A stretch of DNA of 64,000 bases from Lachnospiraceae bacterium. Lineage in GTDB: Bacteria > Bacillota > Clostridia > Lachnospirales > Lachnospiraceae. The stretch lies in NCBI GenBank assembly GCA_015057325.1, contig SVEQ01000005.1, forward strand, positions 1 to 64,000, given 5' to 3'. Under the pieces are notes generated by a model that was not told where the DNA came from, made no database searches, and was given only the letters and a program-made list of their open reading frames with translations. The translations under genes were made by a program, and so were the position numbers. Positions 23,999 through 62,595 of the stretch are shown here, one piece after another; position 1 is the stretch's first letter, and each line of letters opens with the position of its first letter.

Positions 23999-24751
23999 TT
24001 ATATGTTGTTATATCCCAACTGATGTGCTATATCGATAAGCGCAGCGTCCTCCATCTCATGCTCAAGCGGTGATAATTCCTCATCATACTTACGCTTATA
24101 TGCAATGGAAAGAAGCTCATCTGCAATTCTTGCATTTTTAGGAAGAAGCGGGCCGTGTGAATAAGTTGCAAACACATTCTTATAGCGTGCACCCTCAGTC
24201 TTATCCTCACCGTTATTACCAAAGCCCTTAACGATTGTGCCCATAGGTCTTACGCCCTCGCCAAGCCAAGTCTGGCCGTTGTGATTTTCAAAACCGACAA
24301 TAGGAAAAGTCTCGCCGTCCTCTGTCGTATATTCATAAATGAAATTACCAATCATTCTCTTATCATTGGCGGTTGTATATACATTTATTCCTCCAAGGAA
24401 ATCAACCTTAGTTCCGTCAGCTGCCTCGTAGTATTTGCCAAGCATCTGATAACCACCGCAGATTGCAAGGATAACCGTCCCCTTCTCAATCTCTGCCTTT
24501 AACCAGTCAGCCTTATACTCGAACAAATCCTTAACAAGTATCTCCTGCTCAAAGTCCTGTCCACCGCCGATGAAAATGATATCGTAATCGTTATCTTCAG
24601 GCACAGGTCCAAAGGTTACTCTAGACACCTTCGTATCAATTCCGCGCATGCTAAGACGCTTCTCTAAAGTACGGATATTACCGTTATCACCGTAGAGATT
24701 CAATATATCGTAATACAAATGGCAAATGTGTATTGTCTTTTCCGCCATCAT
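23999..24751 (-). CDS. gatD: Lipid II isoglutaminyl synthase, glutaminase subunit
   Basis: A 250-residue class I glutamine amidotransferase. The catalytic Cys is in 'ILAICGGYQMLG' (about Cys98), the oxyanion block is 'IIFIGGGQDFEQEIL', and the catalytic His is in 'FATYSHGPLLPKNARIAD'. GatD supplies ammonia to MurT for amidation of D-iGlu in lipid II, which helps peptidoglycan cross-linking. Two adjacent ATG codons follow AGGAGGAGAAA. The partner murT is upstream, separated by an acyltransferase gene, an unusual insertion. Confidence 0.93.
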   Translation of the reverse strand: MMAEKTIHICHLYYDILNLYGDNGNIRTLEKRLSMRGIDTKVSRVTFGPVPEDNDYDIIFIGGGQDFEQEILVKDLFEYKADWLKAEIEKGTVILAICGGYQMLGKYYEAADGTKVDFLGGINVYTTANDKRMIGNFIYEYTTEDGETFPIVGFENHNGQTWLGEGVRPMGTIVKGFGNNGEDKTEGARYKNVFATYSHGPLLPKNARIADELLSIAYKRKYDEELSPLEHEMEDAALIDIAHQLGYNNI

Positions 24752-24760
24752 TTTCTCCTC

Positions 24761-26674
24761 CTAATATACCTTGTTACAGTTAACCCAGACCACAGGTCTT
24801 ACTGCACCGCCCGTTCTGTTGACCTCTTTAAAGTGCTCGTCAATCGTTCCATCAACGGTTACCACCGGTGCATAAACGTCAGCCTCTCCGGTGCCTCTTA
24901 ACCACCACCAGGAAGAACGGTAGCCTTTCATATCCCACTCATTAACCTTACTGAGTTCATTGATGTTAACGCCCTCAATTCTTGCTTCCTCAGTGATGTG
25001 AAGCTGTCTTTCCTTATCTGTCTTAAAATAGTTTGCAGCCTCATCGACTGTAAGCAGTGTGAATACATCCTCATTCTTAACAACGACACTTGCAAGTTCG
25101 TATTTACTAAGAATTCCCGAAATATAATCCCTGTCATTAAGCATCGCTCTCAAATCAGAATCTTCCCACGTTACCGACTTGTGTTTTTGATTATAAAAAT
25201 AACCGTCTATTCCTTCTTTTGTGACTAGGCACACCTCGTCTCCAACCTTTTTCACAACAAGCCATGTAAGTCTTTCCTTACCGACCGCAGGGTCTGTCTC
25301 AAAAGTGCCCCACAAGACCTCGTCTCCGACTTTTGCGTTGTTGATTGCCTCACACTCCTCGGCATATCGTTTACCCGCAAACATTCTGTAACTAAACTCA
25401 GCACATATAAATGCTACCGAACCGATTATTACAACAACGGCAGTGACAGTTCGCAGTACCTTGCTACGTTTCTTTCTCTTCTCTTCGGCTATTGCGGCTT
25501 CTAATGTATCATTTATGAACTTCTTAGGATTAAGAAGCTTAACTGTTTTCTTAACAAGCCATCTTACAATAGGCGAAATGACAGCCGTACATGCAATACT
25601 GCTTGCAAGCACGACAGCAAATCTTGTTGCATCCGTCATTCTTACACTTCCAAACACGGTACCGACAAAGTATCCGTGAATAAGGAAAAGCTCTACACTC
25701 ATGCCACTTATGTACTTAAGAACCTTGTTGCCAATAGTAATACGCATATTCAGAAGTATTATAAACATTGTAGAGACTATACAATAAATGCTCTGCACAA
25801 TAAGAGTGATAAGCTTATCATGAACGCCAAAGCCCGTCGTATAATAACCGTATCTTACAACAACAAAGACCGCGCCCTGCAAAAGTATTAACGTAAGCAC
25901 TGTGGTAATTGGCATAATAATCTTGTAGTGCTTGCTGCAAAAGGCAGCGATTTTGTCCTTAAATCTTGCAAAATACATACCAAACACAAACACGATTGTT
26001 GAGTTAAACCACCACTCACCCTTAAACCAGTGAGATTTGACACCGTCTGCATCATGTCCCTGGAAGAAGCTGTACACAATGATAAGCACAACAACAATGC
26101 TTAAGAAAAACAATGCCACGTCCTTTTTGCTAAAAAGCGAGAACAACAAATAAAAGAAAAGATATATAAACAATATCTCGATAATAAACCATCCGTTGCT
26201 GTTAACCAACGTATAACCCGAGATATCGCTTATCACTTCAAGCTTGGTGTATCTTACTCCAAAGCCGAAAGCCTTGAGCATAACCCCCAAAATGTTGATA
26301 ACCCAGAAAGGAATAAGTACTGTCGGAAGTCTTTTTGTAAGGAAGGAATCGAGATAATCTTCCTTCGTATAAACGCTTGTAATAAGTCCGTAGCCTGAAG
26401 AAAAGAAGAATATTGATGTAAATGCAATACCGCAATAATTAAGTATCGTAATAGGGCCTTTGATATATACGCCGTACCCGGTCACCTGCTGCGTTAAATG
26501 ATGCAGGACTACAACTATACAGGCAAATCCCTGAATAAGCTTAGTCTGTTCAAGTGATAAGAAGTCAGAAGCCAATTTCCCCTTGCCGGAAAACTTTGCC
26601 CCAAAGAAAGTTATAATGAGCAGTATTACGGGAAAGAGATTTAGCAACACTATATTTAGTAACATTTTATTCAT
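24761..26674 (-). CDS. Membrane acyltransferase with extracellular DUF6273-like domain
   Basis: About 637 residues. Residues 1-370 are an acyltransferase-3 type membrane domain of about ten helices: 'QTKLIQGFACIVVVLHHLTQQ' carries the catalytic-type His, and 'FFFSSGYGLI' follows. A basic loop and a further helix (about 400-420) lead to a C-terminal soluble domain of about 210 residues ('DEVLWGTFETDP', 'RLTWLVVKKVGDEVCLVTKEGIDGY', 'YRSSWWWLRGTG', 'GAVRPVVWVNC'), which I recognise as DUF6273. Such enzymes O-acylate envelope glycans. The ATG ending at 26674 lies 8 bases from an AAGGAG that overlaps the end of murT. Position between murT and gatD hints at a peptidoglycan or wall-polymer substrate. 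Confidence 0.85.
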   Translation of the reverse strand: MNKMLLNIVLLNLFPVILLIITFFGAKFSGKGKLASDFLSLEQTKLIQGFACIVVVLHHLTQQVTGYGVYIKGPITILNYCGIAFTSIFFFSSGYGLITSVYTKEDYLDSFLTKRLPTVLIPFWVINILGVMLKAFGFGVRYTKLEVISDISGYTLVNSNGWFIIEILFIYLFFYLLFSLFSKKDVALFFLSIVVVLIIVYSFFQGHDADGVKSHWFKGEWWFNSTIVFVFGMYFARFKDKIAAFCSKHYKIIMPITTVLTLILLQGAVFVVVRYGYYTTGFGVHDKLITLIVQSIYCIVSTMFIILLNMRITIGNKVLKYISGMSVELFLIHGYFVGTVFGSVRMTDATRFAVVLASSIACTAVISPIVRWLVKKTVKLLNPKKFINDTLEAAIAEEKRKKRSKVLRTVTAVVVIIGSVAFICAEFSYRMFAGKRYAEECEAINNAKVGDEVLWGTFETDPAVGKERLTWLVVKKVGDEVCLVTKEGIDGYFYNQKHKSVTWEDSDLRAMLNDRDYISGILSKYELASVVVKNEDVFTLLTVDEAANYFKTDKERQLHITEEARIEGVNINELSKVNEWDMKGYRSSWWWLRGTGEADVYAPVVTVDGTIDEHFKEVNRTGGAVRPVVWVNCNKVY

Positions 26675-26680
26675 CAAGCC

Positions 26681-28060
26681 TTACTCCTTAGCGTATTTTT
26701 GTAGTGGGACAAACTCAGAAAGTTTGTCACGAAACTCTAACATACATGTATAAGATAACACGAGAAACGTTTCCTTACCCTGCTGTTTTAACATTGTAAT
26801 TAACGTTTTATAATCTTTTTCAACATGGAACTTTTGGGTATCAAAATCAGCAAGTTTAAGTCTAAGCTGCATATCGTAAGCACGTTTTCCCGTAAAGTAG
26901 AAGTGCTCGGCGCCTGATGCAGCCTCCGTTAATCTTTCAAACTCAACATCATATATCCATGAGATATCCTTGCCGTCGGCAAAGTTATCATTTAATCCGA
27001 AAACAATATTACCTGTAGGTCTTTGCTGGATGAGGAACTGAACTACTTCATTAAAACCTGCCGGATTTTTGACAAGCACCATGTGAAGCTTAGACTCTCC
27101 AAGCATCACTTCCTCCATACGTCCAAAGTGCGTTGACAAACTGCCTAGCACGGAAACTATCTGCTCATTGGAAAGTCCGATATTATGCGCAACTGCTGTT
27201 GCAGCCAGTGCGTTGTAAAGATTGTATCCACCGGGAAGCATAACCTCTGCCTTAACCGTCTGCCCAAAAACGTTCATTTCGACAACCTCGGAACCATCCT
27301 TCCACTCTAAAACCTTGGAAAGTGCAACATCTGCGTCGTGTCTCTTGTAACCGCACTTTTCACAATAAAAGCCTCCAAGATGTCCGAAGGTGTGATAATT
27401 GTATTGGTATTTTGTCTTACAGTGAATACAGTAAACCGCATCCGATATATCCTTAGATGTACCCTCATAAAGCGGTGCATCCACTCCAAAATAATGTATC
27501 TCCTTGTGTGGCAAATCCTGTAATGAAGATGTAAGTGAGCAGTCCGCATTAAGAATGAGCTTAACATTCGGTAACTGTTCAAGACCTGCTCTGATCTTAT
27601 TAACCGTGGTTAAAACCTCGCCGTAACGGTCAAGCTGATCGCGGAATACATTAGTTACTACCGCTGTCACATCAAGTTCTCCGAAATGCTCCACGATATA
27701 TCTTAATGCCGCTTCATCGCATTCAAGAAGCGCATAGTCCTTATCAACCTTGCCATTCATTCCCGCTGCCGATACAAATGCAGACACAACACCACCAAGC
27801 ATGTTAGCTCCTGCATCATTACAAAAGACAGTATTACCGCCTGCCTCAATCATATCTCTTATAACGTGACAAGTCGTTGTCTTTCCGTTGGTACCCGTAA
27901 CGCAGATAACCTTCATGTCCTTTGCAAGATGCTTAAGGATGTCGGGACAAAGCTTAAGCACCACCTTGCCCGGAAGACTTGTTCCTCCACTTCCCGTCAT
28001 TTTCAATATTTTAGTTGTAAACTTACCTGCCCATACGGCAAATGTTGAACGTGCGCTCAT
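26681..28060 (-). CDS. murT: Lipid II isoglutaminyl synthase, Mur-ligase subunit
   Basis: A 459-residue Mur-ligase family enzyme. The P-loop is 'VTGTNGKTTTCHVI' (54-67), followed by 'LLECDEAALRYI' and 'VTNVFRDQLDRYGE'. A zinc ribbon with two CxxC pairs (CIHC and CEKC, about 212-236) is the insertion that distinguishes MurT from other Mur ligases. The C-terminal DUF1727 part ends 'FLVLSYTCMLEFRDKL'. With GatD it amidates lipid II. Start is 12 bases after the SMC-like gene's stop, so it is in the same operon as the Jet-like genes. Confidence 0.94.
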   Translation of the reverse strand: MSARSTFAVWAGKFTTKILKMTGSGGTSLPGKVVLKLCPDILKHLAKDMKVICVTGTNGKTTTCHVIRDMIEAGGNTVFCNDAGANMLGGVVSAFVSAAGMNGKVDKDYALLECDEAALRYIVEHFGELDVTAVVTNVFRDQLDRYGEVLTTVNKIRAGLEQLPNVKLILNADCSLTSSLQDLPHKEIHYFGVDAPLYEGTSKDISDAVYCIHCKTKYQYNYHTFGHLGGFYCEKCGYKRHDADVALSKVLEWKDGSEVVEMNVFGQTVKAEVMLPGGYNLYNALAATAVAHNIGLSNEQIVSVLGSLSTHFGRMEEVMLGESKLHMVLVKNPAGFNEVVQFLIQQRPTGNIVFGLNDNFADGKDISWIYDVEFERLTEAASGAEHFYFTGKRAYDMQLRLKLADFDTQKFHVEKDYKTLITMLKQQGKETFLVLSYTCMLEFRDKLSEFVPLQKYAKE

Positions 28061-28072
28061 CTTTCTCTCCTA

Positions 28073-31000
28073 TTATATAAAGTCAAATGTTCCCTGACTG
28101 TATTCAAGATCCTGGTATTCCATCTCGGTTGCTTCAACCTGACTTCTGTAATCTACAACTACCGTCTGCTGACGCCCGCCAACAAGCTGCTGGCCGAGAA
28201 TGTAGTTGACATCGAAACGGTTTGTGATTGCAGGTGTTGCACCACGTGCCGGAACAATAAGCTGAACATTGTTCGTTGCAAGAAGCGCAAATATCGGCTC
28301 CCAAATATATATATCCTTGGCTGCACCAAACGGGTTATCAATAAAGATAACCTTCTTAAGATCGGATGACTCTGCTTCAGGCGCATACATACCGGAAATG
28401 TAGTTAATTATCGACACAAGGAACTGAATGTAGATACCCTGCGACTGTCCGGTACTACCAACTGCCTCCTCATAGCGAAGATAACGGCTCTGATCTTTAA
28501 TTCTCTCGCGCTTATAAAGCTTAAGCTTGATAGCATTCATATCTGTAACCATTACACCGAAAAGCTTCTTTAAGAGAAGTCTGCTCTTCATATATTTGAT
28601 ACGGTCATTGTTGTCATCAAACTTATCCGCACCTGTTACAACCTCATCAATGTAATCAGACATTCTCTGTTTGATGAACTCATCCTTAACATACGGAATT
28701 GTAAGGTTGACCATCTGAATCATTTCGCCGTCTAACTGAATGCGCGAAAGCTTAGGAAGCTTCTCAAGCTCGGTACGAACGTCCTTGCATCTTTCGATAC
28801 ACTGATCCTCGAAATTATTCTTAATAGTCTCCATGTCGGAGATTCCCTGTTCAACTCTTTCCTTCTCAAGCTCGATATACGAAATCATATCGCGAATGTT
28901 GGCAAGAAGCGCTTTTGCCTCCTCATAGGTTTCGGGGATTACGACATCATCCTTCATCGCCTTAGAAAGTTCAAAGGCTCCCATTGCAAAGAATGTGTTC
29001 GCAGTCTGCGACTTAAAGTTGATAAGTTCCTGCTTAGCTCTTGATAAAGTCTTATTGGTCTTATCATAAGTAAGCAAGCTTTCCTCAAATGTTTCTCTAA
29101 CCGCCTCACGATTACCCGAAAGCACTCTGGCATTTCTTGTGTCTATTCCCTCTGACGCAATAATTCTCTTGATATCCTTATAAAGATCAATAATTGTCTC
29201 GTGCTCTTTGATATACTGTTTAAACTCAGCCTCAAAATGCTGCATCTCAGAAACAAGACTCTTAACAACACGGCTTCCCTCTGCAAGTGCCTGCTCTGCC
29301 TCATGCTTGGTTACAGTCTCGGTATTTACCTCTTCTCCTGCATCCTCACCAAAGCGTTCCTTTAATGCACTTAAAGCCTGCTCAATACGACCCTCAACAC
29401 GGGTAACCTCATGTTCTTTCTTCTTTGCCTCATCCTTAAGCTGTTCACATCTAACCGAAAGTTGCGACAAGTGAGAAGAAAGCTCATTGATATACTTCTC
29501 ATCCGTAGGATGAAGTTCACCCTTGTCCTTCATTGCATCAAGTGTCTTAAAGTCAACGCCGCGTCGCTCTATCATTTTGCGTCCGCGCTCCATACTTTTC
29601 TCTAATGTTGCAATAAGCTTCTTCTTATCCTCAAGTGCTACGTTGGCATCCTCATATAAAGCTTTGGCTGCCACAAACTCAGCACGCAATTTATCCTCAT
29701 CAAAAGGAAGCGCCTTGTAGTTACCCTCTACGTAATACTCTTTATAGAGGTTGTCCCAATCGGCAGTTATTTCTTCAAGCTGCTTATTTAAATGTTCAAC
29801 CTGTCCTTTAAGGTCTAACTCCTTAAGTCTTATGCTCTCGCTGTCATTTCCGGCATCATTTGTTGCCGACTCTAATCTTCTAACCTCTGACTCGTAGAAA
29901 TCAAGGTTTGCCTTAAGTTCATCGGACTGGTCACATTTTGCAATGATACCTGCAATCTTAACCTGCTCCTTCTTGTTAAGTTCAAGCAATTCTTTGGCCT
30001 TACTTACATCCTCGCGGGAGGTTTCAATATGAGCTGTTACCTCGTTAATCTCCTTCGTAAGCTTCTCAATCGTCCTTGATAAATCAAGCTGCTGCTCGTT
30101 AATTCTTGTAAGCTCCTCTTCCGCATTCTCGATTGAGCCTGCATTAAGTAAAGCGGCATACTCCATATCGTCATTGTATGTTTCAAGACGAAGTTCCATG
30201 TGCTCCTTGTCATTTTTAAGCTCGGAAAGTTCGCTTTTAAGTCTCTCAATTTCTGCCTTAAGTGCGTCTTCTTCAACAAACACCTTCTTATCCTTTGCAA
30301 GAATAAGCATACCGTCTGTTTCCTCCGGCATATAAGGCGACTCAATCACATTCTTATCAAATACAGGAACTGCCACAGAGCCCAGATCAATCTCGGAAAT
30401 CTTGACATCCTCGCTTATACGGTCAAAATCCTTGGTGACAATTCCGTAAGGAAGCAACGGGAATCTGTCAAGCAAATCCTCTCTGTTAGATGCTGGAAGT
30501 GCCGACAAATAATCTACACCCGAAAGCACAAGCTCACCATGTCTTGTCTCCATATAATCCTTAACCCTGCTTACGGCATACGACTCTTCAAGTATTCTTC
30601 CTTCAGCCATAGCCTCAAGATGCTTCTCGTCTTTGGCAATCTTTTCAGAAAGCTTTGCAAGCTCCACCGAACAATTAAACGCACGCTCTCTTATATTCTC
30701 ATACAACTCGCCTGTCTCTTTGACCTCATATATCTGAAGCATTTTCTTAAGACGGTCTTTGTTCTCAGGATACTTATCATATTTTGCCTTGGCAGCTTCA
30801 AGTGTGGCGTCTGCCTGCTTCTTTTCTTCCTTGGCTATAAAAAGCTCCTGCTCATATTTATTAATCGCCTCCATATCGGCGCGATAATCCTCTTCCGCCT
30901 TGGCAAGCTTTTCATTAATCTCTTCCTCTTCGCCAAGCAAGTCGCCCATCAAGTCCTTCGTATCCGTAATAACCAAAAGTTCGATTCCGGCACGAACTTT

Positions 31001-32554
31001 GCGGATATCCTCCATACATTTGATGTACTCATCGTAGTAACGCTCCTTGTGGCTTCTCGCAACGGCAAGTGCTATGTCGCCCTCTTCCTTAACTTTGAGT
31101 GCCTTCTCAAGCTCTTCAAAAACCAGGTCATACTCTTTTTTCTTGGCATCAAGCTTCTTCTTAAGGTCTGCGGTCTTCTTCTCGTCCAGCTTAAGCTTGG
31201 TATATGCATATAAATGAAGCTTCTCAATAAGCTCCTTGTCGTCCTTGCCCTCCGCGTTAATTATCGCGCGGTTAGCCTCAATCTCTTCCTTGTCCTTAAT
31301 ATACTGAATGTAGTCGTTAACACTTTCCTTAAGCTCTAATTCACTTCTTGCGGCATCGGCCTCTTCGATTGCCTTATCCACCTGCGAAAGAACAACCGAA
31401 AGATCGTCAGAAAGCTCCTTAAGTTCGTAGCGATCCTTTAAAACCTTAAGCTCTTCAAGACGCTTTCTCTCCTTGTGGATTCTCTTCTCATAAGTCTCTC
31501 TGGCAAGGCGGCGTTTCTCAATCTCTTCCTCGCCCCACTTAAGCAAATGTTCCCCTGTCACATAAATATCTGCAAGCGTACCAATTGCCTTGTCCTTCTC
31601 CTCACAATAAGAAAGGAAAGAAGACACACGACCTTCGAGCACGTGCATAAGCTCTGTTTCTTTATCATAATTGGCAATCTCTTTCTTCTTTTTAGAAAGC
31701 TCCATAAGCTTATCCTTAATATCAAGAAGTGTTCTTGCCATGTCCTCATTTACATCATTTTGCTCGGTCTTAACAAGGAATGCTTTCTCAATAATCTCCT
31801 CAATCAAGAGATCCTCGACAACCTTACGGGTAGTCTTATACTGCATCTCAAAGTAAGTTCTTACATGACCCTCCGTCTTGTTAATACCTCTTATAATCTC
31901 CCACTGACTCTCGAAAAGTCCGTATCTGCTTATAAAGCGCTGATACTCACCCTTTCTCTCAAACACGTACACCTTAATGTTAAGATTGCGTCTTGATAAG
32001 TCCTTGAGATAATTCTTAAGTCCTGTATATGTAATTCTCTCCTTGCTGTTTTGCAAAGGAAGATTAACGATATCATTCTCATTGTAGTCTCTATAGAAAA
32101 TGCAGTAGTTAAAATACTCAATAGACGCACTGTCCTTAACGACAGACTTAGAAGGCTTTCCCGCCGCGCCCGCGCTTTCCATAACCTCATCAGGAAGTGA
32201 CATAGTCCCGTCATCAACTCCTGCTTCCTTAGCCTTTCTTGCACAGAAGCCTGTAGTCATGTAGCGGAGTCCTTCCTTGATATCCTTGTCATCAAGCTTC
32301 CACTCCACAAGTGAATGAATGGTAGTGTTACCGCCACCACTTCTAAAAAGTTTCTCAATAGGCTGCTTGTCATCAAGCGTACAGTTAGGAATAAGATTTT
32401 GCAAAAGCAAAAGCATGAGCACACTCTTACCACCACCATTTGCAAGGTCATAGAGCGTGTTCTTACCATACATACGCATGGAAAAATCATCATAGCCCTG
32501 AGTTCCGAAATTATATTTTACATTGTTAACACGAATTCTATTAATATTTGGCAT
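28073..32554 (-). CDS. MukB/JetC-like SMC ATPase
   Basis: A 1493-residue SMC-type ATPase, about the length of MukB and longer than typical JetC. The N-terminal head has a relaxed P-loop 'YDLANGGGKSVLML' (35-48). Coiled coil 1 spans about 290-640, a hinge domain about 650-770 ('GIVTKDFDRISED'), coiled coil 2 about 770-1280, and the C-terminal head has a signature-like 'GSTGQSQGIYIQFLVS' and a Walker B 'KVIFIDNPFGAAKD' (Asp1406). The residue after the Walker B Asp is Asn1407 instead of Glu. Together with the two upstream genes this resembles a Wadjet JetABC or MksBEF complex that loads on and loops DNA. No JetD gene follows. Confidence 0.85.
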   Translation of the reverse strand: MPNINRIRVNNVKYNFGTQGYDDFSMRMYGKNTLYDLANGGGKSVLMLLLLQNLIPNCTLDDKQPIEKLFRSGGGNTTIHSLVEWKLDDKDIKEGLRYMTTGFCARKAKEAGVDDGTMSLPDEVMESAGAAGKPSKSVVKDSASIEYFNYCIFYRDYNENDIVNLPLQNSKERITYTGLKNYLKDLSRRNLNIKVYVFERKGEYQRFISRYGLFESQWEIIRGINKTEGHVRTYFEMQYKTTRKVVEDLLIEEIIEKAFLVKTEQNDVNEDMARTLLDIKDKLMELSKKKKEIANYDKETELMHVLEGRVSSFLSYCEEKDKAIGTLADIYVTGEHLLKWGEEEIEKRRLARETYEKRIHKERKRLEELKVLKDRYELKELSDDLSVVLSQVDKAIEEADAARSELELKESVNDYIQYIKDKEEIEANRAIINAEGKDDKELIEKLHLYAYTKLKLDEKKTADLKKKLDAKKKEYDLVFEELEKALKVKEEGDIALAVARSHKERYYDEYIKCMEDIRKVRAGIELLVITDTKDLMGDLLGEEEEINEKLAKAEEDYRADMEAINKYEQELFIAKEEKKQADATLEAAKAKYDKYPENKDRLKKMLQIYEVKETGELYENIRERAFNCSVELAKLSEKIAKDEKHLEAMAEGRILEESYAVSRVKDYMETRHGELVLSGVDYLSALPASNREDLLDRFPLLPYGIVTKDFDRISEDVKISEIDLGSVAVPVFDKNVIESPYMPEETDGMLILAKDKKVFVEEDALKAEIERLKSELSELKNDKEHMELRLETYNDDMEYAALLNAGSIENAEEELTRINEQQLDLSRTIEKLTKEINEVTAHIETSREDVSKAKELLELNKKEQVKIAGIIAKCDQSDELKANLDFYESEVRRLESATNDAGNDSESIRLKELDLKGQVEHLNKQLEEITADWDNLYKEYYVEGNYKALPFDEDKLRAEFVAAKALYEDANVALEDKKKLIATLEKSMERGRKMIERRGVDFKTLDAMKDKGELHPTDEKYINELSSHLSQLSVRCEQLKDEAKKKEHEVTRVEGRIEQALSALKERFGEDAGEEVNTETVTKHEAEQALAEGSRVVKSLVSEMQHFEAEFKQYIKEHETIIDLYKDIKRIIASEGIDTRNARVLSGNREAVRETFEESLLTYDKTNKTLSRAKQELINFKSQTANTFFAMGAFELSKAMKDDVVIPETYEEAKALLANIRDMISYIELEKERVEQGISDMETIKNNFEDQCIERCKDVRTELEKLPKLSRIQLDGEMIQMVNLTIPYVKDEFIKQRMSDYIDEVVTGADKFDDNNDRIKYMKSRLLLKKLFGVMVTDMNAIKLKLYKRERIKDQSRYLRYEEAVGSTGQSQGIYIQFLVSIINYISGMYAPEAESSDLKKVIFIDNPFGAAKDIYIWEPIFALLATNNVQLIVPARGATPAITNRFDVNYILGQQLVGGRQQTVVVDYRSQVEATEMEYQDLEYSQGTFDFI

Positions 32555-32591
32555 TTTAATCCCTCATATTTCTATTCATTATATAATGAAA

Positions 32592-33317
32592 TTACTTCTC
32601 CTCTTGTGCCTCTTCCTTCTTGTTGGAAAGTGCATCAAATATCTCCCCGCGATACTCCTCAAAATAATGTTCAACTATTGCAGAAAAACGTCCCGTCGGA
32701 TAATATCTCTTATCAACCTCAACAAACAGATTCTCACCTACTAAGAAGTTAAAAACCAACTTGATAAAACTAACCTTCGAAGCACGCGACGCCTTAATAT
32801 CTTCCTGACTTTCTCCCGTACTTACAGGAAGCTCATCCCAGAAAAGTGCTACCGATTTGAAACTCTCTTCCTTATCTTCTTCCATATCATAAATAATTAT
32901 ATCCTTGGTAAATACGGAAAGCGCCTTGTCAACTTCCGAAAGCACATCCTCCGACTTGATATACTCCTTAAACTGATAAGTGCCCGAGTCCGAATAAAAC
33001 TGAAGCAGTATCTCGTATATAAGGAAGTAACAAAGATATAACTCCTTGTTAAGCCTGACACCTATCGCACGTCTTAACTCCTCATTGGTATAACCAAAAA
33101 TCCTGTTTCCTTCTCCGGGCGATAAAAACAAGCTGTCCTTATACTCATATATATGAAGATTAAGCTTCTTAAGAAGCACTCCCAAAATCTCATACACCTC
33201 GGCGTTACCGTAATAATCGTCATAAAGCTGCGAATTATTACCGCCTCTTTCTATCTCTTCACCTGTCACAAGGCGGGCATATATGTCCATCGCCTTTTCA
33301 ATATTTTTCATCTCCAT
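32592..33317 (-). CDS. JetB/MukE-like subunit (DUF6063)
   Basis: A 241-residue acidic protein that I recognise as DUF6063, the partner found between a JetA-like and an SMC-like gene. It is helical with winged-helix character ('MDIYARLVTGEEIERGGNN', 'VYEILGVLLKKLNLHIYEYKDSLFLSPGEGNRIFGYTNEELRR' region at about 40-85, 'FIKLVFNFLVGENLFVEVDKRYYPT' near 185-210). In MukBEF and Wadjet the equivalent subunit bridges kleisin and SMC heads. Gaps to its neighbours are 40 and 37 bases. The role is inferred from gene order and size. Confidence 0.75.
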   Translation of the reverse strand: MEMKNIEKAMDIYARLVTGEEIERGGNNSQLYDDYYGNAEVYEILGVLLKKLNLHIYEYKDSLFLSPGEGNRIFGYTNEELRRAIGVRLNKELYLCYFLIYEILLQFYSDSGTYQFKEYIKSEDVLSEVDKALSVFTKDIIIYDMEEDKEESFKSVALFWDELPVSTGESQEDIKASRASKVSFIKLVFNFLVGENLFVEVDKRYYPTGRFSAIVEHYFEEYRGEIFDALSNKKEEAQEEK

Positions 33318-33357
33318 AGCGGGTCCCTCTCATTTATCTTAAGTCCGATTACAACAA

Positions 33358-34899
33358 TCACGAAGCCATCACAAAATTCATATCTGTTATCGAATACTCC
33401 TCATTCGGTCCAAAGGAAAGCACTTTGCTTTCATCAAACGTGATGTTAAATGCTACCTGTCCGAAGCGGTCCTTCTTCTGAGCACTCAACTGCTCCATGA
33501 TTATTCCCTCAAGAAATGTATCCTGCTTCGTTGCCATTTTTGAAAGGTCATACGAATCCTTCTGCGCCAAATGTACAAAGAACGAATACAAATCACCGTT
33601 GTTATAAATGTCCTTGCCAAACTTAATCTCGTATATCGCAATAAGCTCGGAAAGCGTGGTCTTGCCGTGTTTCCAGAGTTGCTCAAGAAGTTCTCCGTAA
33701 AGCACTCCGTAGTTTTTCGATATTCTCTTATCCTCTATCTCATCTTCATAGACAAAATCAGGATCTAATACTTTCTTCTCAACCTTCTCACCGTAATCAC
33801 CGTTGTCCGTCTTGCCCTCTAACATTCTGTCTATGCACTCTGCATTGAAGGTCTTGTTAAGTCGTGGCATAAGCATCGGTGCGATAAGAAATGATAAGTC
33901 GTCGATTCTGTCTCTCTTCATGGCACCCTCTAGGGCATTTCTAAAATCAAAGACTGGTCTTAACTTTCTAAGTTTTGCTCTGCCTATCATCTCGTCGGCA
34001 ATATTTTGAAGTTCTATTGTCTCACGGATAAGCTCACCGTGACGGATAATCGTTTTCTTAAGCTCAGTATCAAGCTTATGAATCTTAGACAGAACAACAT
34101 TCTCACCCGACTCAGTATTCATGCCCTGCTCGTTTGCCTTGGCAAAAGCCTTGTCGATAAGTGCTCTGTTCTTCTCAAAAAGCTTCGACTCTTCTCTAAA
34201 CCACTTAGCAACGGTTGCCATATACTCTTCACTTGCCTTGGCACCCGCCATAATGTCATAGCTTAAAAGGTCTAACACTTCCTTCTTCTGCAAAGAAAGC
34301 TTGCTAACCTCGTTATTAATACGCTTAACAACCTCGATACCGCCCGCGAAGTTCTCTGAACGAATCATTTTCTCAAGCAACACCTGCTGAACGGAAATGT
34401 TACTCTCGTCCTTAATCTCCTTCGTATCAAGATAAAACTCAATGCCGTCGGTAGTTACATGATAAAGCACAATCCCGTGAACAATACGACTGTCGATAAG
34501 CTTGACTCTTGCGGTTTTCTTCTTCTTCTCCTCAGGGTCAAAATAGTTAAACGTAAACGCCTTACCGTCATTTTTGATCTTGTCAAAAATGTAGCCGCAA
34601 AGCTCGTGCTCCTCCGCCGGGCCTTCATTTATCAAGAACTCCCTATGTAAGAGCTCAAGAAGAAAGTCCTCGTACTCCTCGTAGGTTACCTCGCGCTCCT
34701 GGAAACTGTTCTCATGTATAAGAAAACGAAGCGTCGCCATCGTGATGTAACCCATGTCGAGATTGCTGTATCTCCCGTCCTTATACTGGGTAAATGTTGT
34801 CTCCGACAGCACAAAAAACGGATAATATTTTTTTATATTAATCATTCGATCACGATGCTCACTTAGAATATCGTGAATCATTATGTATTTCTCAGCCAT
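33358..34899 (-). CDS. JetA-like kleisin-type subunit (DUF5716)
   Basis: A 513-residue protein; the ATG ending at 34899 has GAGGAAGCATTT upstream and is preferred over the longer frame. I recognise the family as DUF5716, also named JetA. The N terminus holds winged-helix elements ('MGYITMATLRFLIHENSFQEREVTYEEYEDFLLELL' region, about 50-90), the middle is a helical/coiled segment (about 175-330), and the C terminus contains another winged helix ('GELLEQLWKHGKTTLSELIAIYEI') and a beta-rich tail. This is the kleisin-like organisation of MukF/JetA. First gene of the operon. Confidence 0.78.
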   Translation of the reverse strand: MAEKYIMIHDILSEHRDRMINIKKYYPFFVLSETTFTQYKDGRYSNLDMGYITMATLRFLIHENSFQEREVTYEEYEDFLLELLHREFLINEGPAEEHELCGYIFDKIKNDGKAFTFNYFDPEEKKKKTARVKLIDSRIVHGIVLYHVTTDGIEFYLDTKEIKDESNISVQQVLLEKMIRSENFAGGIEVVKRINNEVSKLSLQKKEVLDLLSYDIMAGAKASEEYMATVAKWFREESKLFEKNRALIDKAFAKANEQGMNTESGENVVLSKIHKLDTELKKTIIRHGELIRETIELQNIADEMIGRAKLRKLRPVFDFRNALEGAMKRDRIDDLSFLIAPMLMPRLNKTFNAECIDRMLEGKTDNGDYGEKVEKKVLDPDFVYEDEIEDKRISKNYGVLYGELLEQLWKHGKTTLSELIAIYEIKFGKDIYNNGDLYSFFVHLAQKDSYDLSKMATKQDTFLEGIIMEQLSAQKKDRFGQVAFNITFDESKVLSFGPNEEYSITDMNFVMAS

Positions 34900-45837: not shown

Positions 45838-48800
45838 TCAACCCTTCTTAATTTTGACTGTTTTAGGTGCTCCCGCATTTCTTATCATTTTCTTATATGC
45901 ATTAAATTGTTTTTTCGTAAGAGACTTCGGCACTTTGATAACTGCTTTTTTATTAATTCCCGAAAATGCATTTTTGCCTATTTTCTTAAGGTCTTTTGAC
46001 TTAATTGTAATTGTCTTTAGTTTCTTGTCACCTGAAAATGCCTTCGTACCAATTGTTGTTATATTTTTCCCGAGAGTAACTTTTGTTATTTTGGTATTCT
46101 TGCTAAATGCTTCCTTAGCAACGGAAGTAATCTTTGCAATCGTTCCGTCATCAAGAACTATTTTGTCGGATACAACAACCGCAGTTGATTTCTTAGCGGA
46201 ATCATTTTGTTTGGTGTATTCCACTTCGACAACTTTTTGGCCTAATGCATCGATACTGCTTTTGCTAACTTTGTAAGTTGCCGTAGTGTCAGATGACGAT
46301 TCTATTATCGAACCTTTCTTTACTTCAACAGCAATCACTTCCTGATTGCCACCTTGCGAAGAGTTTCCGCCTTGACTAACGGTATCGGGATTCGTCCCCT
46401 GTTTATCTCCACCGGAAGTGTCCGGATCCTTTATAACAGGATCTTGCGATTGTTGATTACCTGAGCCATCGTCTACAACGTTATAAGGATAATCTGCATC
46501 ATCACCCTTTACAACCTTGTAATTAGCTGCAATCGCCAATCCATAAATCGTGCCAACAGTTTCGTCTCCGACAGCAAAGTATCCTCCCTTAATTACAGGA
46601 TTACATTTAATTGCTCCTGTTTTTCCGGTAGCCTTTATCTTACCACCGGTTACAACAAAATCGCTATCAGTTGCAATGGCATAACTCTCTATTCCTCCGG
46701 TGCCGGCGGTCGCATCGATGCTTCCGTTCTTTATTACAATATCTCCGCCTGCATAAATACCGTGACTGGCTCCAACGGTTTCTCCCATCGAAGCTATCAC
46801 ATTACCGTCATTTATGGTAAGTTTTCCGTCCACAGACAGTGCAGCACCGGTTGTATAATCATTATCCAAAGAATCGCCACCCGGGATAGTAGCCTTAAGT
46901 GTTCCACCGTTCATCGTAAAGTTGCCGTTACCGGCAATCTTATTTCCATTGTATATTTGAACCTTAACGGAACGGAATCCCACACCTTCTTTTCCCGAAA
47001 TAACATCCAATGTGCCACCGTTCATGACAACCTCTCCCGCAACAATACCGGTAGAGAAGTAAGAAGAATTGGGCTCTGTTATCTTGAGTTTTCCTTTTCC
47101 GGAAACCGTGAGTTTTCCGTACTCAACATATATACCTGTATTCAAACCCCCGGCACCTGATCGTAGTGTTGAACCTGATATCTCATTATCTCCTTTGACA
47201 GTGAGTTTTAGGTTACCTTTTGCGACGTCAATAACAGCATCCGTCATATATGTTCCAACATCCACAAATGTCACATTGCTTCTGTCAATTTTGACATTAT
47301 CAAGAGTAATGTTATATGTCATATTCTCGTCTACATCAGCAACGATTATATCACTTGCCACATCAACGCCATCTGCCATACCGATTGTCAATGGTGTGTC
47401 GGAAAGAATCTTAACCTTACCCTGTTCATACTCATAGTCATCACCAATCAAACCACCTGTTATTACAAGCCCTTTGACATACTTCGACGTAACCCTATAC
47501 AGAGTCTTCCCATCTTTAACTTCTGATGCAATGATACTGTCGTTGGCTATTGTGCATCCGTAAACTGTTCTTGCATCCACATCGCCTTCATTAAACAGAC
47601 CACTTTCTATTGTTGCCGTATTCGGAATCTTAACATTAGCCGTTGTTCCTGTGGCAGTTAATGTTGCATTCTTGATGCTTAATGTTGTTACAGCATTTAT
47701 TCCATACACATCACCGTCAGCAACAATATCACCGTCCGAAATGTTAACATTATTCGACCATATAGCTGCATGATATGCTATTACATAATCAGCCGGATCA
47801 GTTGAACTTTTCGAAGTTTCAATGTTAAGGCTTCCGCCCTTCATATTAAAGTTAGAACTGCTTATCCCGGCATTACAGAATAATCCCTTTGCATCAGACA
47901 ATCCTTTTCCGGCTTTAATTGAAACAGTTCCTGCCAATTGCGTATATGAACCAACGCCGTCTATTTTCACTCCGGTAGCATATGACATATATACCTTGTC
48001 AGTAGCCTCGGAAACTATACTTATATTGCCGCCTTTGACCTTCATTCCATTACAATATAATCCGTAATTGTCTACAGAAGTCACATCATTAGCTTCCGAC
48101 AGCCCACTGTTAACTGCAAGACTACCCATACCTGAAAAGATATACTCACCGTTATAAATGGTCGCAAAATAATCAACCTTACTGCCTGTGGCAGATCCCG
48201 AAAGCATGTTATCACCTTCAAGAACAATCGAAACCTGTTGTGATTTTGACTCGGCAGAGAGAGCCGCTGTAAGGAGCATATTACGTTCTCCACCGGCAAC
48301 CAGATTGTATGATTCATCATAGGCTTTCTCAGTCCCCGTAACCGCAATAGCACTTCTATCAATATGAACATTAGATAATGTTAATTTGACATTTGTTCCT
48401 GCCGACTCGGCTATCATTATTCTATCGTCTGATTCGATTGATGCTTCCGACATTGAAATAGTCATCGGTGCATCTGATTTGATAAGCAAAATACCGGAAC
48501 CGGGAATATTCTCATCCTCTGTATAGGAATAATCAACACCGACCTCGAGAGTGCCACCGCCCGTTCTTGAAAGCACGAAATCTCCTGCAGTGTATACGCT
48601 TTCCTTAAGGATGGATAGTGCAATCTCCGTCTTGGATGCTCTGTATCCTTCCTGTCCGGCATACTCCGCAACTATTAGATATTCGCCCTCGGCAAGTCCG
48701 GCGAAAGAAAATGCCGCTTCACCGTTGTCATCAGTTGTTGCACCGGTGCTGTCTACTGTCACATCACCCTTCTTGATTTGGAAGCTTATTATCTTGTCAG

Positions 48801-50847
48801 ATAAAGGTACATCCGCATTGGTTGTCAACTTCACAGAGCCATTTGCTTTTGCACCTGCTTTAATGGAAAGAGAACTCTTATTCGGTTCAAGTTTTGTTGA
48901 TACCTTACTTCCCACTTTGTATGATACAGTAATCTCCACATTAGCACTACAACTGTCTATAATATGGTAAAAACTACCATCGGCATCCTCTGTGAATGTT
49001 ACAGCAGCACCATTAATCGTTATAGTATCAATAGTTTTATCTTCCTCAGGGATAACCGTTATCCTAACAGGTGAATTAGCCACAACCTGTATATCTGACG
49101 GATAAACGTTTCCACCTGCTACTGCCGTGCTATAAACCCTTCTTGTAGTCTGTTGCAGCGCCAAAGTGCTTGATGCTGACGCCGGCAGGTCATATCCCAT
49201 ATCATCTCGATACACGGTATGTTGTTGCGAAATATCATTTTCATCAAGCATAAAATTGTTAAATGTTGCCGTATCTCCCAGACCATCCCAAGTCGGATCA
49301 CAGTAGTAGTACTTACCGTCACATTTGACGATTACCCATGCATGTGCTCCACCTTGACCGTCACCCGGAACTCCCCATCCTTCAACGTAACTGGCGGACA
49401 CGCCTGCTTTTCTTAAAAGATGAATATATGCTTTGGCATAACCGTCACATACAGCCTTGCCATATATAAACGCAGAGTTTGCCGATTGATCCATATAACC
49501 AAGATCATAGCTTACATGTGCAGCCAACGCCTGATACAATACATACGCCTTTTGATAATCTGTCATCGATTCGGTAACACCCGATGATAACAAAACTTTA
49601 TTTACGGCTTTTTCAAACTTCTCATTTCCGGAAACAACTTTCGAGTATGAATAGCCGTTTTCAAGCATAATGGTCGCACCATCAGTTCCCGGGCTTACGG
49701 AGTTTTGCCACAACCACCAATACTCAGGGTGATCATTTCTAAGAGCATTGACAACCGTTAACGACTGCGACATATCAAAACCGTAATTCATACCGTAATC
49801 AACAGAAACATAATTGCCCGACTTATAACCATCCAAAGATGTAAGACCTATATCATATGAACTGACATAATTGTCGCCATTTTCAAGCCTTGAAATACAA
49901 TTTCTCGCTATCATTGTTGAAAGATATGCTGTTGCCTTGTCTGTATATTTAATCGTATACGGATACGTATCTTTGGTTGCTGCATCAGTATTGACAACCT
50001 TTTCACATAAAGGTATTTCTCCGTTATCAAGTGTTCCGTTATAAACCTTAAATCCGTATAACTTCTCATCAGCATATGAACCACCGATAAGTTTTGCAGA
50101 TGATGCATTAATCTTCTTTCTCGAACCGGAAGCCATGATACATCCGCCTCCGATTGTAAGAGATTTCTTAGTGTATATTCCGTATTCCTGTCCCGAAACA
50201 TCTAGCATTCCGTCACCGTCTATATCTAGATTCATCGCCCAAATTCCAGATAAAACATCATCAACCCCCGGCGTGTAAATATCACCGTATGACTGTGTCG
50301 AGTTACTTGACCTTGCACCCTTTAACACGTTATTACCCTTTAATGTTATACGAAGTTTTCCTCGATAATCCTTGGCACCATTTGCACCTGTAACATAGAC
50401 TTCACCCGGATAATAAATTGCCGAAAGTGCAGCCATACCGGTATCACTTATTCCACCGTTTGCAAGATCTGCCCATTGAAAGAACAGTTCCTGTGATGAA
50501 CGGTCAATAACGACATCTTCAAGAATAATATGGCGTGCTTCATTAGTTTGTCTAGGTGTCATTACGTATACGCAATCCTTTGTGCTTTGCACACCGGCTT
50601 TCATTTTAATCGTAACGTCTTTGCTTGTGTTTACAAACATCATACCAACCGTTGTGTTTGAGGAATCCAATGAAAATGTAGAAAAATATACTTCATTTTC
50701 TTCTCCGTCCTCAACGGTTGCAACAAGATCACTGTAATCTGATGTGTACTGTCTTGTTGCCGCATGTGCTCTTCCCCCAAGGCACGACACAGTCACCAGT
50801 GCCGCAGCAAATACAATAGTTTTACATAGTCTAAACTTTTCTCCCAT
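45838..50847 (-). CDS. Giant secreted transglutaminase-fold / beta-helix surface protein
   Basis: A 1669-residue secreted protein with a signal peptide (about 8-29). Three related beta-helix-like blocks carry 'LKGNNVLKGARSSNS', 'LEGDNMLSGSATGS' and 'VKGDNEISGSTLRSG' (about 165-270, 870-1000 and 1195-1400). Between the first and second lies a transglutaminase-like domain with Cys in 'GKAVCDGYAKAYIHLL', His in 'GGAHAWVIVKCDGKYYYCDPTWDG' and its Asp (about 455-530), and Ig-like domains ('LEPNKSSLSIKAGAKANGSVKL'). The C-terminal 110 residues are an LRR unit with a basic tail shared with two other surface proteins. Start has AGGAGGATGTATT upstream. Role at the cell surface is inferred. Confidence 0.82.
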   Translation of the reverse strand: MGEKFRLCKTIVFAAALVTVSCLGGRAHAATRQYTSDYSDLVATVEDGEENEVYFSTFSLDSSNTTVGMMFVNTSKDVTIKMKAGVQSTKDCVYVMTPRQTNEARHIILEDVVIDRSSQELFFQWADLANGGISDTGMAALSAIYYPGEVYVTGANGAKDYRGKLRITLKGNNVLKGARSSNSTQSYGDIYTPGVDDVLSGIWAMNLDIDGDGMLDVSGQEYGIYTKKSLTIGGGCIMASGSRKKINASSAKLIGGSYADEKLYGFKVYNGTLDNGEIPLCEKVVNTDAATKDTYPYTIKYTDKATAYLSTMIARNCISRLENGDNYVSSYDIGLTSLDGYKSGNYVSVDYGMNYGFDMSQSLTVVNALRNDHPEYWWLWQNSVSPGTDGATIMLENGYSYSKVVSGNEKFEKAVNKVLLSSGVTESMTDYQKAYVLYQALAAHVSYDLGYMDQSANSAFIYGKAVCDGYAKAYIHLLRKAGVSASYVEGWGVPGDGQGGAHAWVIVKCDGKYYYCDPTWDGLGDTATFNNFMLDENDISQQHTVYRDDMGYDLPASASSTLALQQTTRRVYSTAVAGGNVYPSDIQVVANSPVRITVIPEEDKTIDTITINGAAVTFTEDADGSFYHIIDSCSANVEITVSYKVGSKVSTKLEPNKSSLSIKAGAKANGSVKLTTNADVPLSDKIISFQIKKGDVTVDSTGATTDDNGEAAFSFAGLAEGEYLIVAEYAGQEGYRASKTEIALSILKESVYTAGDFVLSRTGGGTLEVGVDYSYTEDENIPGSGILLIKSDAPMTISMSEASIESDDRIMIAESAGTNVKLTLSNVHIDRSAIAVTGTEKAYDESYNLVAGGERNMLLTAALSAESKSQQVSIVLEGDNMLSGSATGSKVDYFATIYNGEYIFSGMGSLAVNSGLSEANDVTSVDNYGLYCNGMKVKGGNISIVSEATDKVYMSYATGVKIDGVGSYTQLAGTVSIKAGKGLSDAKGLFCNAGISSSNFNMKGGSLNIETSKSSTDPADYVIAYHAAIWSNNVNISDGDIVADGDVYGINAVTTLSIKNATLTATGTTANVKIPNTATIESGLFNEGDVDARTVYGCTIANDSIIASEVKDGKTLYRVTSKYVKGLVITGGLIGDDYEYEQGKVKILSDTPLTIGMADGVDVASDIIVADVDENMTYNITLDNVKIDRSNVTFVDVGTYMTDAVIDVAKGNLKLTVKGDNEISGSTLRSGAGGLNTGIYVEYGKLTVSGKGKLKITEPNSSYFSTGIVAGEVVMNGGTLDVISGKEGVGFRSVKVQIYNGNKIAGNGNFTMNGGTLKATIPGGDSLDNDYTTGAALSVDGKLTINDGNVIASMGETVGASHGIYAGGDIVIKNGSIDATAGTGGIESYAIATDSDFVVTGGKIKATGKTGAIKCNPVIKGGYFAVGDETVGTIYGLAIAANYKVVKGDDADYPYNVVDDGSGNQQSQDPVIKDPDTSGGDKQGTNPDTVSQGGNSSQGGNQEVIAVEVKKGSIIESSSDTTATYKVSKSSIDALGQKVVEVEYTKQNDSAKKSTAVVVSDKIVLDDGTIAKITSVAKEAFSKNTKITKVTLGKNITTIGTKAFSGDKKLKTITIKSKDLKKIGKNAFSGINKKAVIKVPKSLTKKQFNAYKKMIRNAGAPKTVKIKKG

Positions 50848-50875
50848 AATACATCCTCCTCATATCCGTCAACTG

Positions 50876-53800: not shown

Positions 53801-53959
53801 CTGAACATAATAAAGCGTTATCTCATCCGGAAGCGAGGCTAGAGGTCCCTCATCCGCATGTACAACCATGCCGAAGTTTTTTCCGGCAAGAACAATAAAC
53901 GCTACCATAACAACAGACCATATTAATAATAATGACCTTCTCTTAATTTGTGTTTTCAT
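50876..53959 (-). CDS. Secreted transglutaminase-fold protein with BIG2 and LRR domains
   Basis: A 1027-residue secreted protein with a signal peptide (about 10-35). Residues 165-290 are a transglutaminase-like domain with Cys in 'EKGDCIANSWYITQMCKSVG' and His in 'GSGHVNSYVECKVG'. An LRR_5 segment ('FDENAFAPMF', 'ITKINKKVLSGAPNLKNIVV'), two BIG2 domains ('TSDKIIAQVDEDGVIEARGKGICTITAQ' region and 'WSTSDPNIATIDENGILTTLGEG'), CxxC-bearing modules ('GTCSHCNQEA', 'NRCAVCGVCGEYELPPLGHDL', 'CTCKRCGEKVPEV') and a C-terminal LRR module with basic tail follow. It lies 28 bases upstream of the giant protein gene, so the two form a unit. Confidence 0.82.
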   Translation of the reverse strand: MKTQIKRRSLLLIWSVVMVAFIVLAGKNFGMVVHADEGPLASLPDEITLYYVQNEYSKKIDIPNEYPTSYHIDMSQLPANTTVSAAVGAFVYANDKGLIAPCQRNVGIAISMGYIEDLDCVHYFERTDRLNTFRYSPCYDIVVVDCGSYHKEIDVYVKNYAEIEAQKRLEKTASEITAGLTSDYEKLEAITKWVADNTDYSVDYSLLHNIVLSEKGDCIANSWYITQMCKSVGIKNARLRRAFQDDNICGSGHVNSYVECKVGEKAGGYEVDVWAGERGRGYILNPDPEGFYVWCEDASTVFQYDGFEKNITIPDKINGNDITTLGKVDRFDENAFAPMFYSKVDMECPVEQVNIPSGITKINKKVLSGAPNLKNIVVAAGNANYKSVDGSLFEKNGKLLYVPPATNSLMITNPDDIQSIDDSAFDDVSDLYIYYGGDKASWNGKGLAIPEKAKDKVTVLFGTTRVTGISVTNPSIQISGRGSKLQIDASVAPANAVNQKIYYKTSDKIIAQVDEDGVIEARGKGICTITAQTADGGFTQDINVEVTNAGRKIIITGGVVANGADKGKKEAYVNVGDTITIVANEEIDNSYFSNWTFPESLTALNNNPNLVYAKSVTLTMPDADVTVVANYSAGQLDFLNNINCENFYCEGSLVQLSVNTAINGGDTTYIRKGIKWSTSDPNIATIDENGILTTLGEGGVTIYATADTARQGNKTVSANITVLEHELIEDTKVIVQMTDCISIPTIVRGTCSHCNQEATVYVPADGEHYWSLTGEVIIKERTCTEPGIARNRCAVCGVCGEYELPPLGHDLDNGVVTKEPTKTEPGERVCTCKRCGEKVPEVIAATGGPEEPQTNPPANPADNPVVQNPITVAIPTSNVYPVDSPIQDNKKTAKYIVTSASDSPTVAYIAPVSKKSKTATVPSTIDVEGQTYKVTEIKANAFSGSKKLTKITIGENVNKIGAKAFYGCTNLKTINIKTSKLTLKSVGKDAFGKVNKKATATVPKKMKKSYTNILRKRGLKGKKQKIK

Positions 53960-58872: not shown

Positions 58873-58987
58873 ATATGTGCCCCCAGTTTATTCAACGAAA
58901 TTTCTCTATATAATTATTGAATATTTTTAAGAGCTTGTAAATTTACGGGTTAATCATGTACATACTTTTATATTTTTAAGATTAAAC

Positions 58988-59533: not shown

Positions 59534-59740
59534 TTCTTTTCAAGCGCCCCTTATTCATTTACTTCCATCTTGTTTTGACATTGTTATTAATAACCAACAC
59601 CCATACAACGAACTTTCTTCCCTTATTCCTCTTGAAACCAATCATCAAATAAATGTTTTGGTAGAGTTAGACAATCGATAATCCTTTCTCTAACTATTTA
59701 TTCAGTTAACAGTCATCATTTTAACACTACCCCCTGTTGT

Positions 59741-60748: not shown

Positions 60749-60940
60749 TCTCTTACCTCTTTTTTTACTTCCATTGTATACTATCTATAAATACTTTATT
60801 AGGCGGCGTTATAATTAAAATTGAGTAAATATTCTTCATAAAGGATTAGCAATATCGTAAATACTTATTGCAATATTAACATATCAATTGATACGTATTT
60901 TGTCTACAGTTTGCTCCCGGACACCAATATAATGATGCCA

Positions 60941-62530: not shown

Positions 62531-62595
62531 ACCCAAACTCCTTTAAAAAAACACAACTGTTCGAAAACAATAACTGTAACTCTTCCATCTTCTTA

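Follow-up and report, generated by a model that had tools for sequence, protein, structure and literature searches.

A 64,000-nucleotide stretch of Lachnospiraceae bacterium (assembly GCA_015057325.1, contig SVEQ01000005.1, positions 1 to 64,000), hereafter called the window, carries the genes jetA, jetB and jetC, which encode the core of a type III Wadjet system. Such a core usually belongs to a defence that kills plasmids. As read from its sequence, this JetABC set is intact, under selection and vertically inherited; it has no detectable JetD, the nuclease of Wadjet systems, and occurs in addition to Smc-ScpAB. We consider it fairly probable that a Wadjet core has here turned into a chromosomal MksBEF-like loop extruder, free of a nuclease and passed on vertically.

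The locus encodes an intact type III Wadjet core

The three genes lie on the minus strand as intact open reading frames (ORFs) in a tight operon. The first, jetA (34899-33358, 513 aa), starts with an ATG behind an AGGAAG-like site and is followed after 40 bases by jetB (33317-32592, 241 aa), encoding the KITE subunit, and after another 37 bases by jetC (32554-28073, 1493 aa), encoding the SMC ATPase. This confirms the order and tight spacing reported in an earlier reading of the letters (hereafter the original prediction), which had seen a three-gene Wadjet/MukBEF-like SMC operon without JetD, a description also supported by the type III profiles and by the three JetD models considered below. 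The PADLOC models for type III Wadjet matched all three proteins (JetA, PDLC00560, 706 bits; JetB, PDLC00571, 329 bits; JetC, PDLC00581, 1819 bits), JetC over its full length and each protein with a type III score far above that of any other model listed, and the set therefore has the JetA-JetB-JetC core of the Wadjet kind (JetA3, JetB3 and JetC3 in PADLOC). The profile check called for in order to place the large ATPase within the SMC/MukB group puts JetC firmly among the Wadjet SMC proteins. JetB carries the predicted DUF6063 domain (Pfam, 167.7 bits); no Pfam match was obtained for JetA or JetC at E ≤ 0.001, and the label DUF5716 given to JetA was not reproduced.

Composition and conservation divide JetC into a head, a coiled coil, a hinge-like middle (approximately aa 676-750), a second coiled coil and a second head: the ends are conserved, long stretches are charged, and the middle near residue 700 is less charged and richer in Pro and Gly. 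The Walker A motif LANGGGKS (aa 37-44; 32423-32446, minus strand) is found in 55 of 55 aligned JetC proteins, with N39, G40, G41, G42, K43 and S44 invariant in all 55 rows. The SMC signature GSTGQSQ (aa 1366-1372; 28439-28459, minus) is kept in 54 of the 55 rows, as are D1406 and N1407 of the Walker B region around FIDNPFG (aa 1402-1410; 28325-28351, minus); one row, that of G164, is truncated by a contig end. The ATPase motifs are thus retained, with two peculiarities, a Leu in place of the first Gly of the classical P-loop and a Walker B that reads DN, both shared with the JetC of a JetD-bearing relative (G038). SMC ATPases usually have a catalytic Glu where JetC has this Asn. Since DNPFG is also present in some JetD-bearing type III JetC proteins, the DN is a trait of the JetC type and not of JetD loss.

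An AlphaFold model of JetA (mean predicted local distance difference test 79, predicted template modelling score 0.39) has MukBEF or MukE-MukF chains as its seven best PDB matches (E from 2e-6 to 1.4e-3), and the lengths of these chains suggest that they are MukF. The Wadjet entries 8dk2_A and 8as8_E match with E 0.02. Template modelling scores are low throughout, the best match reaching 0.24 of the query. By sequence, a search of solved structures gave no match with JetC alone and only unrelated weak ones with the JetA and JetB profiles.

JetD is not detected in the genome or beside the locus in the genus

The original prediction found no JetD candidate near the locus, and this is borne out and extends to the whole genome. 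In the assembly (99.3% complete, 24 contigs) no JetD was detected with Pfam JetD_C (PF09983), PADLOC PDLC00592 or a 27-sequence JetD profile, and hence no TOPRIM nuclease of this kind is found in the operon or elsewhere in the genome. A further Pfam model, PF11795, matched none of 60 genomes and is uninformative as a JetD marker, since genomes in which other models find a type III JetD were missed as well.

JetC of the window's type is present in 26 of 26 genomes of the genus. The 27-sequence profile detected JetD in eight of them (405-470 bits) and thus works in close relatives; these eight are exactly the genomes that hold a second JetC (22-25% identity), while with the same profile no JetD was found in the other 18, namely the genome studied here and 17 more, all without a second Wadjet. 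Seven of the eight second JetC genes were fetched with their surroundings (the one from G006 was not): six have JetD before the JetA position, and in the seventh (G014) JetA and JetD lie at contig ends. Because JetD occurs exactly where the second JetC occurs, it belongs with that second system and not with the one in the window. Again, no JetD ORF was seen in the 25 window-type loci fetched from the genus (23-JetD profile, E ≤ 0.01, ORFs of at least 60 aa), the contig ending at or inside JetA or JetB in four of them (L066, L067, L089 and L091). A jetD gene beside the locus in close relatives, which the original prediction had named as evidence that would speak against it, is therefore not seen within the genus; it does occur next to the closest JetD-bearing sisters outside the clade, G038 and G1070, described below. 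The suggestion that the system uses a nuclease encoded elsewhere does not hold for JetD, given the null results in the genome itself and in the 17 others. Since JetD was tested for and not found, we do not file the set as a Wadjet defence system.

JetD-less JetC appears to be inherited with the chromosome

In order to compare the inheritance of the two JetC types, the Smc tree was used as a proxy for the species tree, since Smc was detected at E ≤ 1e-100 in 75 of 76 genomes. When each genus was represented by a single genome and G038 and G141 were excluded, 18155 of 20000 sampled quartets agreed between JetD-less JetC and Smc (0.908; n = 37 genera, Spearman 0.866), and adding these two (n = 39) gave 17654 of 20000. 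The second, mostly JetD-bearing type agrees with Smc in 7518 of 20000 quartets (0.376; n = 23, Spearman 0.458), a value inside the range obtained with shuffled labels (mean 0.334, maximum 0.415). Without thinning, the figures are 18135 of 19993 for the JetD-less type and 8814 of 20000 for the second. From this difference in quartet agreement, the JetD-bearing type appears to be mobile between lineages, while the JetD-less type appears to be inherited with the chromosome; its presence in all 26 genus genomes fits the stable vertical inheritance of MksBEF- or MukBEF-like systems. Among 72,556 plasmid and 50,697 phage records, none was matched by the window JetC (tblastn, E ≤ 1e-5).

In the window species JetABC is under purifying selection as strong as that on housekeeping genes. 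When the window genome is compared with G004, its closest relative, the ratio of non-synonymous to synonymous substitution rates (dN/dS, Nei-Gojobori) is 0.026 for JetA, 0.016 for JetB and 0.036 for JetC, next to 0.035 for MurT and 0.032 for GlpK as controls from the same pair. Besides, a full-length Smc and ScpB are present in the genome, so that Smc-ScpAB has not been replaced, as it was in MukBEF in the strict sense. A role of JetABC as a Smc replacement was rejected for this reason.

JetD was probably lost once on the stem of a single clade

We surveyed 397 Lachnospiraceae genomes with PDLC00581, taking scores above 900 bits as the window type and scores of 112-190 bits as the second type. 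The window type is present in 50 genomes and the second in 26, with both in two (G200 and G223). A single-sequence query had found JetC in one of ten other genera of the family (E ≤ 0.001), a possible underestimate, and the profile survey is the better count. Among the 50 window-type genomes, 40 have no JetD match, eight have weak ones only (19-38 bits), and two have a strong JetD beside a second-type JetC. Strong JetD (above 80 bits) was found in 25 of the 26 second-type genomes (not in G393), in none of the 48 with the window type only, and in four further genomes of the family with no JetC at E ≤ 1e-30. At the level of loci, no JetD ORF is present in 48 window-type loci of the family (L142-L188 and L087), the place upstream of JetA being visible in 44 and the contig ending at or before it in the other four (L155, L158, L176 and L188); JetA is present in all 46 whose contig reaches it.

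Weak similarity to the C-terminal half of JetD (approximately 19-38 bits) occurs in 56 of the 397 genomes (e.g. G239:C1:537397-537849), mostly in ORFs of about 400-440 aa. Such matches are equally common in genomes lacking window-type JetC (48 of 347) and in those carrying it (8 of 50); we treated them as another TOPRIM family, not linked to JetABC.

Across 391 sampled genomes of the class and 363 of the order, JetC above 900 bits was confined to Lachnospiraceae and to one member of another family of the same order, G038, which has the arrangement jetD-jetA-jetB-jetC with the window's JetC type. Within Lachnospiraceae, G1070 also has JetD beside a window-type JetC (190 bits, ENK and GDxD motifs kept). 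JetD stands before JetA in the outgroup loci G705, G806, G627, G542 and G659 too, the JetD of G806 being cut by the contig start. In JetC trees all JetD-less rows form one clade, with a Shimodaira-Hasegawa-like approximate likelihood ratio test (SH-aLRT) support of 99 in the tree of 53 rows built before G1070 was added, 96 with G1070 and 89 in a tree thinned to 40 rows; G164 was omitted from the latter two trees, and G141, G659, G627, G902 and same-genus duplicates also from the 40-row tree. G038 and G1070 are mutual sisters just outside this clade (SH-aLRT 99), and G141, whose contig starts inside jetB, branches below G038. Since the JetD-less JetC proteins form one clade with JetD-bearing sisters, the simplest account, and a probable one, is a single loss of jetD on the stem of that clade. 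Outside it, two loci also seem to be without JetD, that of G393 (L319), which has second-type JetABC but shows JetD neither within 18 kb nor elsewhere in the genome, and that of G902 from another family (L334 and L341), where the approximately 3.7 kb upstream of JetA contain no JetD; JetD may thus have been lost more than once overall.

When conserved columns of JetD-bearing and JetD-less proteins were compared in search of a lost JetD interface, with only 11 JetD-bearing rows for JetA, one differing column was found in JetA, two in JetB and 10 in JetC. All of them are also changed in the JetD-bearing G038 or G1070, and therefore they mark the type and not the loss.

Genus loci without an adjoining jetA

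By tblastn, jetA is present in 17 of the 25 genus loci, absent beside jetB in seven (L068, L073, L074, L077, L078, L081 and L090, from genomes G001, G009, G011, G016, G018, G020 and G025) and cut in one (L091 of G005). No jetA was found in the other loci checked from these seven genomes. In L074, L078 and L090 the place beside jetB is taken by a zinc-ribbon-like gene followed by a pyruvate-kinase-like one, as read from the sequence. Loci without an adjoining jetA occur in several branches of the genus tree and require at least three changes. JetB and JetC are kept in all seven loci, JetC with its three motifs. In these genomes jetA may have moved or been replaced by a substitute, or a kleisin-less JetBC may be left. 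An MksBEF- or MukBEF-like system is expected to have an SMC, a kleisin and a KITE subunit and no nuclease; this set is complete in the window, while the kleisin gene does not adjoin the other two in these seven loci.

Chromosomal neighbourhood and candidate partner genes

The flanks of the operon are as originally described, a tRNA gene before jetA, here a tRNA-Lys (35115-35042, minus), and murT after jetC (26681-28060, minus; MurT_C 117 bits and Mur_ligase_M), 12 bases behind it and outside the system. At least one flanking gene (murT, GH25, threonyl-tRNA synthetase or other window genes) is shared with the window by 17 of the 25 genus loci; L078 and L081 have none in common on either side, and six short or one-sided contigs show none. 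A tRNA-Lys stands upstream of jetA in nine of 21 relative loci scanned. In other genera, recR lies at most four ORFs from jetA in 20 of 46 loci, mostly in the order dnaX-ybaB-recR-jetA-jetB-jetC, the genes frequently standing a few tens of bases apart.

Behind jetC, some loci have a PdaC/DUF3298 lipoprotein, an aldose epimerase or a TPR-AAA protein. The last (L087:12296-15385 and homologues) is approximately 650-1300 aa long, starts with TPRs, varies over a long middle part and ends in an AAA-like domain; it is widespread in Lachnospiraceae, and the first member seen has no Pfam domain over the cut-off. Although 36 of 48 family loci have its gene close to jetC, it was rejected as a fourth subunit because matches occur in 80 of 80 genomes, 56 of them without window-type JetC; in some genomes, including that of the window, the match covers the C-terminal part only and may be a paralogue. 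In one of eight JetC-negative genomes with a flank (G127), the TPR-AAA gene directly follows recR. Aldose-1-epimerase, found for four of 10 proteins scanned in genus loci, was rejected as an effector, being an ordinary metabolic enzyme that is not behind the window jetC. Altogether, the flanks of the genus and family loci contained no gene found to be both restricted to JetABC and conserved with it.

Discussion

The absence of a cutting enzyme and the housekeeping-like inheritance suggest that JetABC now acts on the cell's own chromosome. We propose that a type III Wadjet core lost JetD, most likely once, in an ancestor of the Lachnospiraceae lineage, and that it has been inherited vertically since. 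By analogy with their families, JetC dimers would be joined by JetA as a MukF-like kleisin and bound by the KITE protein JetB, and the complex would hydrolyse ATP and extrude DNA loops. What is left once JetD is gone would be loop extrusion on any DNA, with the chromosome as the main substrate, and JetABC would be a second loop extruder beside Smc-ScpAB. Among the roles offered by the original prediction, that of a housekeeping loop extruder is the one favoured by the genus-wide occurrence of JetC, its congruence with Smc and the strong purifying selection.

Several observations weigh against this reading. Only the 50 genomes out of 397 carry window-type JetC across the family, and the support of the JetD-less clade varies between the three trees, which are quick trees without bootstrap. 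The column comparison revealed no residue in JetA or JetB whose loss goes with that of JetD, and the JetD-binding face may therefore have been kept or reused. Seven genus loci have jetB-jetC with no jetA beside them, which slightly lowered our confidence, and JetC dN/dS is somewhat higher, 0.059, 0.063 and 0.139, in three pairs that include such a genome, next to 0.042 and 0.039 in two pairs that do not; dS is 1.8-2.6 in these pairs, near saturation, and two further pairs gave no value.

The main alternative, which we regard as rather unlikely, is that JetABC is still a defence system, one that restricts invading circular DNA without cutting it, for instance by compacting it, as Smc5/6 has been proposed to do with viral DNA, or that recruits a general host nuclease. 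The core is that of Wadjet, the 18 genus genomes with window-type JetC and no JetD would be compatible with a JetD-independent defence, and the recR found near jetA in 20 of 46 family loci could provide a link to general repair. However, defence genes are usually patchy and mobile, while this JetC is present throughout the genus and tracks Smc; moreover, the identified neighbours are metabolic or core genes, and the commonest gene after jetC is found in every one of the 80 genomes, including the 56 without window-type JetC. A complex of the Wadjet kind with a new dedicated effector in its operon, the second possibility raised by the original prediction, would find candidates in the lipoprotein, epimerase and TPR-AAA genes behind some jetC genes, but no dedicated gene was found to travel with JetABC in the loci examined and the window jetC is followed by murT, which leaves this possibility very improbable.

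No more credit can be given to a JetD that is encoded elsewhere or borrowed from a second Wadjet: such a second system with JetD is indeed held by eight of the 26 genus genomes, but three models found no JetD in the genome studied here and the profile found none in 18 of the 26. Equally hard to sustain is a decaying Wadjet remnant. The loss of JetD, the seven of 25 genus loci in which jetA is not beside jetB and the jetC of G005 (a genome 76% complete), which lies in two frames, are what decay would produce. For the window lineage this is contradicted by the low dN/dS (0.016-0.036); besides, no stop interrupts jetC in the 26 genus genomes (two frames in G005 and a contig-cut gene in G011 aside), and the ATPase motifs are kept even in the jetA-less loci.

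Returning to the nuclease-free chromosomal loop extruder as the preferred reading, known systems provide both parallels and differences. In Wadjet, JetABC is described as extruding DNA and sensing its shape, while JetD cuts (PMC12287153, PMC10586767). In C. cellulovorans, deleting jetABCD is reported to raise plasmid uptake by orders of magnitude (PMC12287153). Compared with the type III systems of G038, G1070 and the second-type loci, the window system has the same subunits, A-B-C order, type III profiles and Walker A, and it differs by lacking JetD and by being passed on vertically, whereas those systems are mobile. In a review, MksBEF and possibly MukBEF are proposed to descend from Wadjet systems that lost JetD, and the JetD-less system described there, with a chromosomal role, is the closest parallel (PMC10586767). 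Here the profile class is type III, the lineage is another one, in Bacillota, and the chromosomal role is one that we infer from sequence. Smc-ScpAB is kept in that system, and it is kept here as well.

E. coli MukBEF likewise has no nuclease, and among solved structures the JetA model is nearest to MukF; however, MukBEF replaced Smc-ScpAB in its lineage (PMC10586767), while Smc and ScpB are kept here. Corynebacterium glutamicum MksBEFG is the opposite case: it shares the kleisin-KITE-SMC core beside Smc-ScpAB and has the nuclease MksG, which is linked to the complex by the kleisin MksF (PMC10123090), and with its nuclease it is reported to act on plasmids and not on chromosome folding (PMC7083940). 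Finally, Borrelia burgdorferi MksB, an SMC-like protein beside Smc that is described without MksE and MksF, promotes long-range chromosomal contacts (PMC10406323), which is relevant to the genus loci without jetA.

More tentatively, the lineage could represent an independent conversion of a type III Wadjet into a chromosomal condensin in Bacillota, built into the dnaX-ybaB-recR cluster in part of the lineage and perhaps coupled to replication or recombination and not loaded in the ParB manner, with a kleisin gene that has loosened in some species of the genus, as might be expected of a set that has ceased to be a defence cassette. No description of a JetD-less type III Wadjet core in Lachnospiraceae was found in the literature covered, which consisted mostly of non-subscription papers and included no preprints. 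Since JetD-bearing sisters are extant, the lineage allows the step of JetD loss to be placed on a tree, where the loss of the nuclease coincides with a switch from mobile to vertical inheritance, and the transition from defence to housekeeping thereby becomes testable by subunit swaps between sisters. It also follows that JetABC matches from gut Lachnospiraceae should be taken as plasmid defence only when JetD accompanies them.

Other features of the window

The partner gene of murT, gatD (23999-24751, minus), encodes a protein with a GATase_3 domain (145 bits) that scores 217.5 bits with the NCBIfam model isoglutsynth_GatD, under its cut-off of 400. Between murT and gatD lies an acyltransferase-3 gene with a DUF6273 end (24761-26677), an arrangement also seen in relatives L065 and L069; in others, e.g. 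L071 and L075, murT and gatD adjoin each other. Further along the window, at 45838-53959, two adjoining genes encode very large surface-type proteins of 1669 and 1027 aa, both with transglutaminase-core, bacterial Ig-like and BspA-type leucine-rich repeat domains. The stretches 57838-58872 and 58001-64000 comprise an AT-rich window end (GC 0.29-0.33) and, near it, two ORFs with no Pfam match, a polysaccharide pyruvyl transferase and a PD-(D/E)XK nuclease-like ORF (PDDEXK_4, 38 bits).

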